From the NCBI RefSeq assembly GCF_013401515.1, contig NZ_CP058529.1, positions 992,001 through 1,056,000 on the forward strand: 64,000 nucleotides of DNA. Direction: 5' to 3'. Position numbers and translations under genes: made by a program. The notes below the pieces were generated by a model. The model was not told the origin of the DNA. It saw only the letters and a program-made list of their open reading frames with translations, and ran no database searches. The stretch comes from Halorarum halophilum. Its GTDB lineage: Archaea; Halobacteriota; Halobacteria; Halobacteriales; Haloferacaceae. Every line of letters begins with the position of its first letter. Position 1 is the first letter of the stretch. This document shows positions 35,827 to 39,645 of this stretch, piece by piece.

Positions 35827-37911
35827 ATGGACCCCATAATCGAGGGAGGTGACGGGGGGCTCGAGATCAGGGACCCGATCGAGCGTCGGCGGGTCGTCCT
35901 CGAGACCGACCGGGCCGTCTCGCCGACCGAGGTCGACCCGTCGGCGCTCAGGGTCCCCGTGGGGTCGGCCGTCCGCGTCGCCGCCCGCGAGATCGTGCTC
36001 CCCCGGTTCGTCGACCTGTTCGTGCGGGACGCCTCGGGCGACGCGATCGCCGACGCGAACTCCCTCCAGTATCGGGCACTCCCGGCCGAGGAGTACGTCG
36101 TCGAGGTCAACGCGCCGGTCAAGGTGTACCTCACCGTCGACTCCGCGCTGGAACTGGTGGTCGGACCCGGCGGAATCCGCCTCGCGTTCCCGGAGTCCAC
36201 GCCGGTGACTGTCGGGGCGCGCTCGTATCACCACCGACCCTCGGCCACCATCACGACGACGACCGATCCGGCCGACCTCCGGACCGCGATCTCGTCGCTC
36301 TCGTCGGCGCTGAAGACGACCGGGCCCGAGCGGTCCTACCCGACGCTCCGGGGGCACCCGCCCCTCGTCGAACTCGGCGAGCGGCTCTCCGTCCCCGACG
36401 AGATCGCGAGACCGGAGACGGGCGTCCGGATGGCGGTCCCGTCGACCGTCGAGGCGCTGTTCGCGGCCGCGCCGCTCGCCTACTATCTCGGCGCTGAACT
36501 CGTCGCCGGCGAGGAGCCGCGACTGCTCACCGACGCGGGACTCGACTACGACCTCACCAGCGCGGGGAGTCTCGAATCCACGGTGCGGCGCGTGCTCGAG
36601 CGGGTGTTCTTCCTCGACTGCCTGCTCCGGACGGAGGGGTACGCCGGCGTCGACCTCTCGGAGCGGGCCGCGGTAGCGGACGCGGTGGATCTCGAGTTCG
36701 ACCGACTGTACGACGAGCCGCTCGCCGAACAGCTCGCGGCGTACCTCTCGGTTCCGTACGACGAAATCGCCGAGCAGATACCCACGTGGAGCCTCGTCGC
36801 CTGCTTTTCGCCGGACCCAGAGGGCATCGAGGCGCTCCCGTTCGTGGTCGACGAACTGGCGACCGTCCGCGTCGTGGAACCGGATCCGATCCCGCCGTCG
36901 GACCTCCGCGAGCGAATGGTCGCGGACTATCTGGACGCGGAGAACGGTATCCACTTCACCCGGGGGCGGGGTACCGAGAATCCCCCGTTCGAGTCGGTCG
37001 TCGCGCTCCCGGAGTCGAACGCCGTCGAGCAGGTGTGGTTCGGCCCGGGGCTCCCTTGGAACGCGAGCAAGGGGGTGCCGGACGCCTACCGCAACGGACT
37101 CGGCCGGGAGCCCAACGCGGGGCCCATCGACATCACCGTCGTCCGCAACGACTCGGCGATGGACGAGGAGTCGACCGCGGCCGCCGACGCCTACCGCTCG
37201 GGGATCGACCTCCCGTTCGACGTCCACGTCGAGACCGACCTCTCGACGTCGGAGCTCCGCCGGGCCTTGGCCGCGGATGCCGACTTCCTCCACTACGTGG
37301 GCCACATCGACCCCGGGGGGTTCCGCTGTCGGGACGGGCTGCTCGACGCCGAGAGCCTCGACGCCGTCGGCGTCGACGCGTTCCTCCTCAACGGGTGTCG
37401 CTCGTACGAGCAGGGGGTCGCACTCGTCGAGCGGGGCGCCATCGGCGGCGTCGTCACGCTGAGCGAGGTCATCAACAGCGGCGCCGTCGACGTCGGCCGG
37501 ACGATAGCCAGACTGCTCAACCGCGGGTTCCCCCTGCGGGCGGCGCTCGCGCTCGCACGGTCGGGGCACGCGCTGGGCGGTCACTACCTCGTCGTGGGGG
37601 ACGGGACGATCGACGTCGCGCAGAACTCGAACGGAGCGCCGATAGCGTGTGAACTAGAGCGAACTACCGACGGGGCAATTGAGTTGATTGCTCACACGTT
37701 TCTTCCGTCGGAAGGAGGGATGGGAACAGTTACGTATCCGTTCCTTCCCTCGAATGATCGACACCACCTCGCACCAGGTGCGTCGGGATCGTTCCAATTA
37801 CGGGAGACGGAGACGCGTCAGTTCTTCGACCGCTTTGCTCCCCCTGCTATCGTCGACGGGAACCTGTTGTTCAAGAACGTCGTCGACCAACTAAACGATC
37901 AAGGGCCGTGA
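35827..37911 (+). CDS. CHAT-domain (caspase-like) protein
   Basis: 694 residues from MDPIIEGGDGGLEIRDP; a TATA-like CTATAACC lies ~33 nt upstream (ATG at 35752 is an alternative). Residues 1-430 match no family I know: a beta-rich part to ~150 (VDLFVRDASGD, EEYVVEVNAPVKVYLTVD), then mostly helical. Residues ~434-600 form a CHAT domain: FLHYVGHIDPGGF with His493, FLLNGCRSYEQG with Cys524, then GAIGGVVTLSEVINSGAVDVGRTIA and FPLRAALALAR. CHAT enzymes are clan CD proteases cut from caspase/separase ancestry and usually act in regulated signalling. The catalytic pair is intact. The last ~85 codons are visibly less GC-rich. Confidence 0.82.
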   Translation: MDPIIEGGDGGLEIRDPIERRRVVLETDRAVSPTEVDPSALRVPVGSAVRVAAREIVLPRFVDLFVRDASGDAIADANSLQYRALPAEEYVVEVNAPVKVYLTVDSALELVVGPGGIRLAFPESTPVTVGARSYHHRPSATITTTTDPADLRTAISSLSSALKTTGPERSYPTLRGHPPLVELGERLSVPDEIARPETGVRMAVPSTVEALFAAAPLAYYLGAELVAGEEPRLLTDAGLDYDLTSAGSLESTVRRVLERVFFLDCLLRTEGYAGVDLSERAAVADAVDLEFDRLYDEPLAEQLAAYLSVPYDEIAEQIPTWSLVACFSPDPEGIEALPFVVDELATVRVVEPDPIPPSDLRERMVADYLDAENGIHFTRGRGTENPPFESVVALPESNAVEQVWFGPGLPWNASKGVPDAYRNGLGREPNAGPIDITVVRNDSAMDEESTAAADAYRSGIDLPFDVHVETDLSTSELRRALAADADFLHYVGHIDPGGFRCRDGLLDAESLDAVGVDAFLLNGCRSYEQGVALVERGAIGGVVTLSEVINSGAVDVGRTIARLLNRGFPLRAALALARSGHALGGHYLVVGDGTIDVAQNSNGAPIACELERTTDGAIELIAHTFLPSEGGMGTVTYPFLPSNDRHHLAPGASGSFQLRETETRQFFDRFAPPAIVDGNLLFKNVVDQLNDQGP

Positions 37912-38039
37912 TACGCCCCACAGCCCGATGTGGCCGCCATCGCCATCCCCGCCTGCGAGGAGAGGAGGACGAGCGTGAACAGCGCGCCGATCAGTTTCGG
38001 ATGCTCCGCGACCTTCGCCGTCAGTACGTTGTCGGACAT
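37899..38039 (-). CDS. 46-residue membrane peptide (DUF7503-like)
   Basis: ATG at 38039, TGA at 37899, overlapping the 3' end of the CHAT gene by 13 nt on the opposite strand. The protein starts MSDNVLTAKVAEHPKLIG, then has one hydrophobic span (GALFTLVLLSSQAGMAMA) with a signal-peptide-like AMA end, and finishes TSGCGAYHGP. The pattern 'MSDN-x-L-x(5)-EHP-x-hydrophobic' is one I recall from tiny haloarchaeal proteins named DUF7503; the name is from memory. Such peptides are often near the RecA-like/wHTH family seen at 38328. Function unknown. Confidence 0.72.
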   Translation of the reverse strand: MSDNVLTAKVAEHPKLIGALFTLVLLSSQAGMAMAATSGCGAYHGP

Positions 38040-38327
38040 TCGTGGTCACCTCGGATAGCCGGGGCGGCGGTCACCCCGACACGGTTCGGAGTTGGCGACG
38101 ACGTGTTTCGTTATGGATTACGTATCCCCAGTGCGCCCGCCGAATCCGTAAGCGTCGGCGGCGGTAGGGGCCGACTAGCGCAGAGATACCCCCCGGAACA
38201 GGGAGTGGAATACCCCACGGATAGACACGTTCGTCGAGCGTCGTTCGCAGAATGAGGCAACGTGTGACGCCGTAGGAGTGAACTTTAGTACGTCCCGTTT
38301 TATTACCCCGCCAAGAGTACGAATCGT
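38040..38327. other. Divergent regulatory region
   Basis: 288 nt between the starts of the membrane peptide (leftward) and the RecA-like/wHTH gene (rightward). The right end holds a clear TATA box. No well-placed TATA was found for the leftward gene, and no further gene is visible. Confidence 0.5.
38297..38306 (+). promoter_or_regulatory. TATA box of the RecA-like/wHTH gene
   Basis: GTTTTATTAC is centred 26 nt before the ATG at 38328, the spacing expected for a leaderless haloarchaeal transcript. Confidence 0.65.
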
Positions 38328-39230
38328 ATGGGTACGGAACGAGTACCGTCGCTCCTCCAGCGGGAAGACAGGCTCCTCGTCGCAGCGGACGAGAGCGACG
38401 ACGTCGGCGAACTCTGCATCGACTTCATCCTGAAGGATTCGACTCGCGAGGCAGCAGCGGTCGCCGTCACCAGCGGCCGCAACTCCGCCGCGCTGCTGGA
38501 TCGGTGGCAGCGGAGCGGGCGCGGTCGGTTCCGCGACCTCTCCGTCCTCGCGGTCGGCGGCGCTGACCGGTCGGTCGCCGCCGACGGGGCGTCCCAGTCG
38601 GCACTCGGGCTCGTCCAGTCCCTCGACGAGTCGATCACCGTGACCGAACTGGTCGAGCGCATCCAGGGCCAGTTACAGGAGTGGGCGGCCGACGAAGTGG
38701 CGCTCGGCGTGTACGTCGACTCGCTGGACGACTGGCTCGACCCGAAGTCCTACATCGAGCTGATCGACCGCCTCTCGTCCGTGCTCTCGGCACACGGCGG
38801 GGTCGGCGTCTTCCGCGTCTCCCCGGACGTGAGAGCACTCGCCGCGATACGGTCCCGGTTCGGGGCGGTGATCGAACTTGACTCCGACGGGGTTCGGACG
38901 GCGCCGACGGAGGAGCCCGTCCCGACCGAGGAGCTGTTCGACGCGCTCGGAACCAGACGCCGGTGGCGGGTGCTCCGGTACCTGCTCGGACGACGCGACG
39001 AACCGACGGACGTCGATGAACTCGCCCGGGCGCTCGTCCGGGAGGATCCCTCGGAGGAGGCCGTACAGAAGCGGTACGTGGGCCTCGTCCACAGCGATCT
39101 CCCTGTGCTCGCGGATCTCGGCGTCGTCACGTTCGAACGGAGTCGATCCGTCGTCGAACCGACCGACCGTATCGGGAGCGTGGAGCCCTTCCTGGCGCTC
39201 GCGGACGCGGAGTCTACCCAGCAGGTCTGA
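38328..39230 (+). CDS. RecA/KaiC-like protein without Walker A fused to winged helix (DUF7504/DUF7344-like)
   Basis: 300 residues. The first ~185 follow the layout of a RecA/KaiC-like fold (EDRLLVAADESDDVGELCIDFIL, AAAVAVTSGRNSAALLDRW, DEVALGVYVDSLDDWLDPKSYIELIDRLSSVL), but no GxxGxGKT phosphate loop is present, so ATP hydrolysis is unlikely. Residues ~200-290 are a winged helix (LFDALGTRRRWRVLRYLLG, DVDELARALV, LVHSDLPVLADLGVVTFE) of the haloarchaeal DUF7344 kind. It looks like a sensor-regulator that may control nearby genes. The next gene starts 4 nt after its stop. Domain numbers are from memory. Confidence 0.75.
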   Translation: MGTERVPSLLQREDRLLVAADESDDVGELCIDFILKDSTREAAAVAVTSGRNSAALLDRWQRSGRGRFRDLSVLAVGGADRSVAADGASQSALGLVQSLDESITVTELVERIQGQLQEWAADEVALGVYVDSLDDWLDPKSYIELIDRLSSVLSAHGGVGVFRVSPDVRALAAIRSRFGAVIELDSDGVRTAPTEEPVPTEELFDALGTRRRWRVLRYLLGRRDEPTDVDELARALVREDPSEEAVQKRYVGLVHSDLPVLADLGVVTFERSRSVVEPTDRIGSVEPFLALADAESTQQV

Positions 39231-39234
39231 ATCG

Positions 39235-39645
39235 ATGTACGACGAGGACGTCCGCGGCGACCTGGGACTGATAGTACTGGAGGCGTTCGCCCACGACGTA
39301 CCCGTCGTCGGGCTGCACGTCCTCACGCATCAGGACCCCGGGGTTCCGGACATCGCCGTCGACATCAGGTCGGACGACCCCGAGGCGCACGACCGTACCC
39401 ACGACGGGTCCGAGGCGGCCGCACGGCGACTCGAGGCGTTCGAGACCGCGCTCCAGGACCTACTGCTCACGGCCTACGCCGAGGACGAACTGGCCGACCC
39501 GGTCGGCGTCTGGCGCCTCGAGTTCCCGTCTCCGCACGTCCCAGACTGGTCCGTCGAGATCTCGTTCAGGATGTCGGACGGGGGCAGTTCCGAGCGATCG
39601 GCACCGGAACGACGGAAGCGACACGCGACCGCACGCGACTCCTGA
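39235..39645 (+). CDS. Unknown 136-residue protein co-transcribed with the RecA-like/wHTH gene
   Basis: From MYDEDVRGDLGLIVLEAFAHDVPVVG. The core mixes strand and helix (GLHVLTHQDPGVPDIAVDIRSDD, RRLEAFETALQDLLLTAYAEDEL, VWRLEFPSPHVPDWSVEISFRM) and the C-terminus is basic and disordered (SERSAPERRKRHATARDS). No family is recognised. It starts 4 nt after the previous stop, so translation is probably coupled. It ends 28 nt before the convergent gyrA stop. Confidence 0.7.
   Translation: MYDEDVRGDLGLIVLEAFAHDVPVVGLHVLTHQDPGVPDIAVDIRSDDPEAHDRTHDGSEAAARRLEAFETALQDLLLTAYAEDELADPVGVWRLEFPSPHVPDWSVEISFRMSDGGSSERSAPERRKRHATARDS

Follow-up and report, generated by a model that had tools for sequence, protein, structure and literature searches.

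We analysed a 64,000-nucleotide stretch of Halorarum halophilum contig NZ_CP058529.1 (the window, whose positions serve as coordinates throughout), in which four neighbouring genes had originally been predicted to form one CHAT-protease signalling module. All four open reading frames (ORFs) were confirmed. The first, on the forward strand (35827..37911, with its ATG at 35827 and its stop at 37911), encodes a protein of 694 residues, which ORF analysis, AlphaFold2, Foldseek and hhalign mark as a CHAT/separase-fold protease. The codons of its catalytic residues lie at 37303..37305 (His493, motif HYVGH) and 37396..37398 (Cys524, motif NGC), and a variable C-terminal domain of residues 601-694 is encoded at 37627..37908, all on the same strand. 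Facing this gene on the reverse strand (37899..38039), and overlapping it by 13 nucleotides at the stop codons, is the gene for a 46-residue DUF7503 micro-protein (MSDNVLTAKVAEHPKLIGALFTLVLLSSQAGMAMAATSGCGAYHGP; PF24335, E = 7.8e-16), whose invariant C-terminal Gly-Pro codons occupy 37902..37907 of that strand.

Structural modelling indicates that the 694-residue protein is a genuine CHAT/separase-fold cysteine protease with predicted proteolytic activity. Its AlphaFold2 model (predicted local distance difference test, pLDDT, 90.8; predicted template modelling score, pTM, 0.91) has the caspase-haemoglobinase fold of clan CD, and Foldseek against the PDB returned separase as the best match (E = 1.5e-7), followed by gingipain and caspases. 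Profile comparison by hhalign with PF12770 members gave a probability of 97.3 (E = 2.6e-11, profile positions 443-599), with the His and Cys motifs aligned. His489, Gly492, His493, Cys501, Asn522 and Cys524 were invariant in alignments of 44 and 71 sequences (A1 and A2), and the His-Cys dyad in the HxxGH and Cys motifs was intact at 138 of 143 unique loci; at the other five, four paralogues are catalytically dead and one contig is truncated. The modelled fold, the dyad and the profile alignment all support the CHAT protease that the original prediction had proposed, with its intact caspase-like His493/Cys524 pair. In the model, residues 1-145 are beta-rich and residues from about 145 to 430 alpha/beta; no known domain could be assigned to residues 1 to about 430. 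Neither tetratricopeptide repeats (TPR) nor a known peptide-receptor domain appeared among its Pfam and NCBIfam matches or top Foldseek hits, and a sequence search of the PDB gave no match.

The window protease has no Pfam or NCBIfam match, and the Pfam CHAT model (PF12770) does not find it even at E = 1, nor anything else in the window's own genome. The latter result is a limit of sensitivity, not an absence; a divergent family member (G026) scores under the Pfam CHAT cut-off. Searches with the protein itself found the family in 29 of 40 relatives, at up to 12 places per genome and at five in its own, in 144 of 170 genomes of the family and in 399 stretches of a public genome collection; every sampled genome of a Haloferax-type genus has a single copy. 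Plasmid-borne copies are mostly annotated as 'hypothetical protein', rarely as 'CHAT domain-containing' or 'caspase family protein'. To judge from these matches, this is a large haloarchaeal protease family missed by Pfam CHAT.

The convergent 46-residue peptide of the original prediction (ORF 38039-37899) is conserved opposite the protease and scored 57.8 bits against DUF7503, for which the cut-off is 27. Searching with a profile built from it, we detected convergent relatives at 48 of the 64 CHAT loci from related genomes and at 74 of 85 from named genomes, always tail-to-tail. Over the 143 unique loci the profile recognised a convergent peptide beside CHAT at 116, or 126 when Gly-Pro-ending ORFs within 350 nucleotides were included, well beyond what chance would give, and the last sense codons of the two genes are a median of 6 nucleotides apart. 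The association also holds from the side of the peptide: 45 of 45 DUF7503 matches in 40 genomes fell within 500 nucleotides of a CHAT match, and comparison of two tables showed that none of the 126 genomes with DUF7503, among the 170 of the family, lacks the protease. These counts strongly support the convergent DUF7503 peptide as an obligate partner of the protease, in a conserved arrangement that more than 200 loci share. The partner also appears to follow the catalytic dyad. It accompanies 125 of the 138 dyad-intact proteases and is missing at four paralogues that have lost both catalytic residues (L034, L039, L089 and L090), as well as at the truncated contig. These four, of which L034 is G000:C1:2141672-2142736, form a subfamily without His/Cys that has kept a conserved N-terminal Arg/Trp. 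At four loci of Natronorubrum and Haloterrigena (L156, L160, L163 and L165), two CHAT genes stand in tandem; the usual peptide accompanies the first, and none was recognised at the second, which is dyad-intact. Such tandem genes may share one peptide.

The end of the micro-protein combines a fixed and a hypervariable part. Among the profile peptides, the last residue is Pro in 113 of 116 and the one before it Gly in 112 of 116, preceded by 105 different hexamers with about 3% charged residues. The tail thus consists of about 6-9 uncharged hypervariable residues followed by Gly-Pro-COOH, and between related peptides 54% of its residues differ, against 15% in the helix. A convergent ORF ending in Gly-Pro was found at 120 of 143 unique loci, compared with 1-7 of 143 for eight other dipeptide endings, and only 19 of 1432 predicted genes in these loci end so, most of them being the micro-proteins. 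The same end was present at 30 of 30 further loci picked by protease similarity (one with partly masked sequence) and at 97 of 100 loci picked for having DUF7503. The two sets used in the sister-pair analysis described below together hold 232 unique pairs with a Gly-Pro-ending micro-protein, which is a count and not a rate, as the sets were selected for this end. All synonymous Gly and Pro codons are in use and third codon positions vary most; therefore, selection acts on the protein. We set aside a ribosome-arrest peptide of the SecM kind, which can also end in Gly-Pro: there is nothing downstream in cis, and stalling at internal repeats would serve no useful purpose. The window's CHAT protein itself ends in Gly-Pro (37900-37911), as does its Halobaculum salinum orthologue (L051). 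A functional Gly-Pro end of the protease was rejected in favour of a by-product of overlapping stop regions because no other predicted CHAT gene ends in this way; the CHAT 3' end apparently overlaps the opposite-strand Gly-Pro codons of the peptide, which give it this end.

Loci missed by the profile often carry convergent Gly-Pro-ending ORFs, some of them, in Halococcus and Haloplanus, without a hydrophobic segment. A Haloplanus-like genus has one protease in each of 12 species, 79-100% identical to the query. Three of the 12 keep the membrane form of the micro-protein (e.g. ...LLLLSQAGTVAASNGGGISGP), while in nine the helix is replaced by tandem 13-residue units, [YFMS][TN]AD-GN[GS][GS][GA][IV]SGP, present in two to more than ten copies that are near-homogeneous within each gene (part of the sequence is masked in one of the nine). 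In these repeat forms SGP is always terminal, 3 nucleotides from the protease stop, and the 8-mer NGGGISGP is the same in membrane and repeat forms; the DUF7503 model does not recognise the latter. At the DNA level, the repeats downstream of CHAT (L171-L177, L179 and L182) are near-homogeneous 39-bp tandem arrays of species-dependent copy number, a possible fast-evolving marker. Both the Haloplanus repeat forms and those of Halococcus lack a signal peptide as well as a hydrophobic segment. These observations speak for the tail as the functional element, with the hydrophobic helix dispensable, and, as the repeat forms have no signal peptide, for action of the tail inside the cell. The idea that the peptide is a membrane target became doubtful because Haloplanus and Halococcus relatives have lost the helix while keeping the Gly-Pro tail; the peptide fits the role of a cognate ligand, more probably one that restrains the protease than one that is its target.

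Analysis of sister pairs revealed that the tail diverges together with one part of the protease. Pairs were chosen greedily without overlap, and overall divergence was regressed out; this approach was used instead of column-wise covariation across all pairs, which was weak. In the first set (63 pairs), tail change tracked the divergence of protease residues 601-694 (r = 0.557, p = 0.001). This region was chosen after scanning several regions of the first set, so the fair test is the second set, 39 pairs from 84 further loci with near-identical proteases removed, where the correlation was again found (r = 0.615, p = 0.002). Since genera overlap between the two sets, the second is not fully independent of the first, and the p values from permutation are as low as the test allows. 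The N-terminal and catalytic-core regions of the protease showed no significant tracking of the tail, and the peptide helix did not track residues 601-694 (r = -0.01 and 0.02 in the two sets). The peptide N-region tracked weakly in the second set (r = 0.34), and the tail correlation was unchanged when helix and N-region were controlled. These sequence statistics suggest that each tail is matched to its own protease, which it would control. The same region stands out in its codons. GC content at third codon positions (GC3) drops by 0.156 in the last 95 CHAT codons compared with -0.005 in other genes (p = 1e-34), as if the CHAT 3' end had been exchanged or were evolving differently; in the window protease it falls from 0.92 in the rest of the gene to 0.60 in residues 601-694, a drop not seen in the H. 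salinum orthologue.

Taken as patterns in sequence, the pairing, the invariant Gly-Pro, the dispensable helix, the loss of the peptide with the dyad and the joint divergence of tail and residues 601-694 are all statistically supported. The best reading, to which we give somewhat less than even confidence, is a two-gene system in which the tail is the cognate ligand of the protease and probably restrains it in a securin-like manner. A cytosolic CHAT/separase-type cysteine protease would be faced tail-to-tail by its micro-protein, whose tail would dock at the protease domain via the C-terminal domain and lie in or near the active site as a pseudosubstrate made uncleavable by its Gly-Pro end. The tail would keep the enzyme silent or membrane-parked, as securin does for separase, until its loss or displacement switches the protease on. 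We favour restraint because the peptide is lost with the dyad, the Gly-Pro end cannot be cleaved, the tail is multiplied in soluble form and securin offers a precedent. The fixed convergent orientation may be explained by the tail-to-tail order, which puts both specificity-determining ends within about 300 nucleotides and could thereby keep them matched. DUF7504-type proteins would serve as accessory signal inputs at a subset of loci. More tentatively, and with somewhat less confidence, these features might describe a so far unrecognised archaeal recognition system. A separase-like protease would use its own variable C-terminal domain to read a free Gly-Pro carboxyl end and a hypervariable tail; every paralogue would have a private tail, and the two ends, held adjacent by the convergent gene order, would be renewed jointly. 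Cell fate might thereby be controlled in a self/non-self or paralogue-specific manner.

Several points weigh against restraint by the tail. Inhibition is suggested by sequence that would fit activation by the peptide equally well. The weak point is the membrane form, which resembles a Sec signal peptide (Ala-x-Ala before the tail in 105 of 107 peptides and an uninterrupted 13-residue hydrophobic core in most) and would thus export the tail, separating it from a cytosolic enzyme. Furthermore, 13 of the 138 dyad-intact proteases have no recognised peptide, four of them being second copies in tandem loci, and the association of dyad loss with peptide loss (Fisher p = 1.8e-5) is only indicative, as the truncated contig was counted and relatedness ignored. 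Finally, tail and C-terminal domain are encoded side by side, and recombination that replaces both at once could account for some of their correlation.

The signal-peptide features would be expected if the micro-protein were Sec-exported and cut at Ala-x-Ala to release a Gly-Pro pheromone of 6-10 residues, which the CHAT protease would sense after its re-import. A short variable tail with conserved C-terminal residues and a neighbouring receptor-like gene are also features of RRNPP systems such as arbitrium AimR-AimP, and the Haloplanus tandem copies resemble multi-copy pheromone precursors. The receptor-like partner here is, however, a protease without TPR or known peptide-receptor domain, the repeat and Halococcus forms have no signal peptide, and a literature search found no haloarchaeal peptide pheromone; we consider an exported signal less likely than restraint. 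We rate still lower the reading in which the activated protease cleaves the micro-protein and the product acts on the membrane, like a miniature gasdermin. A caspase-like protease does adjoin a hydrophobic micro-protein that is missing where the dyad is lost, and the Haloplanus linker [YFM][TN]AD-G looks like a caspase site. Nevertheless, several lineages lost the hydrophobic helix but kept the C-terminal Gly-Pro, and nothing follows the Pro, so the conserved end cannot be the scissile bond. Bacterial gasdermin systems place a gasdermin-fold pore protein next to a protease, whereas the partner here is a DUF7503 peptide without gasdermin similarity.

A toxin-antitoxin-like addiction module or antiviral pair maintained by mobility is improbable. 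Such a pair would fit a protease with a dedicated small partner, several paralogues per genome and the 25 haloarchaeal plasmid records that carry a protease copy, but the genes are convergent rather than operonic, and the protease is single-copy in 15 of 15 genomes of one genus and 12 of 12 of another, which points to a core and probably vertically inherited gene. All 25 plasmid records are predicted to be non-mobilizable, no copy was found in viral contigs or phages, and a BFVD fold search gave two partial matches only. Least probable of all is that the pairing is real while tail and C-terminal domain merely hitch-hike as a shared 3' end recombined in one block without functional matching: the GC3 drop, the proximity of the two ends and the weak tracking of the peptide N-region would fit, but no tracking is seen for the helix, which is nearer the tail than is most of the domain (although, being conserved, it gives little power), and the correlation survives control for helix and N-region.

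Among known systems, the pair shares with separase-securin a clan CD separase-fold protease and a dedicated small partner. In that system, a Phe-Pro-containing pseudosubstrate in securin blocks the separase active site (PMC6858450). Here, the partner has 40-50 residues, is not homologous to securin and is convergent, hypervariable and Gly-Pro-ending, and the protease is archaeal and has no helical-repeat domain. With CHAT proteins such as the TPR-CHAT of type III-E CRISPR (Craspase) it shares the CHAT domain by profile comparison and the HxxGH/Cys motifs; it differs in lying below Pfam CHAT detection, in having N-terminal beta and alpha/beta domains in place of TPR, and in its partner, a micro-protein rather than Csx30/Cas7-11. 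Genes 2 and 3 of the window are members of DUF7503 (PF24335) and DUF7504 (PF24336), both of unknown function in Pfam. A literature search found no paper naming either and none on CHAT domains with haloarchaea; the gene pair, widespread in haloarchaea, is apparently undescribed until now. The finding connects both of these domains with a protease and leads to the prediction that a protease domain recognises a short peptide end by a code, for which Haloplanus offers a natural experiment. Haloferax volcanii shows strong caspase-like activity, for which no gene is known (PMC3615174). Our genome search found this species positive for DUF7503, and given the obligate pairing it should carry the protease; the family thus provides candidates for the gene behind haloarchaeal caspase-like activity.

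Beyond the peptide, gene 3 (38328..39230, forward strand) was confirmed as a RecA/KaiC-like protein without Walker A fused to a winged helix. It matches DUF7504 (E = 3e-11, 44.4 bits against a cut-off of 27) and DUF7344 (E = 3e-13, 50.3 bits against 27.8), AlphaFold2 and Foldseek give a RecA/KaiC-like ATPase fold, and the AT-rich, TATA-like TTTTATTA upstream (38298..38305, forward strand), read from the sequence, is a putative promoter element. DUF7504 lies within 4.5 kb at 64 of 149 CHAT loci (43%), and most matches (54 of 72) are upstream of CHAT and share its strand; in the window it is instead downstream of the peptide, a layout shared by Halobaculum salinum, Halegenticoccus and Haladaptatus loci. 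DUF7504 is not confined to such loci, being common outside them as well (39 of 40 genomes). A role as recurrent accessory of protease loci is moderately supported. Gene 4 (39235..39645, forward strand) encodes 136 residues, begins 4 nucleotides past gene 3 as predicted and has no Pfam match; by eye, it appears to contain two copies of a motif of about 60 residues, L..hhL.AhA....G.W.L....hPDh.VeI. Its relatives were found only in L051 and L063, with synteny at three loci (two in Halobaculum, one in Halegenticoccus), so the four-gene module was rejected as a unit. The gene-neighbourhood search thus narrows the original prediction to a CHAT/peptide core, with DUF7504 as a recurrent neighbour and without gene 4; the first observation is right, and the core stronger than first described.

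Other genes recur next to these loci. A HalX response regulator, encoded on the same strand as the peptide, often lies just past it (L108:6987-7583 and about 20 other loci), and TrmB-like and guaB genes follow at Haloferax-type loci. One protease clade is recurrently adjoined by a TbsP-type transcription regulator (L048:3811-4632 and about 14 other loci), and several of its members have longer tails such as GEGVTKTGP.

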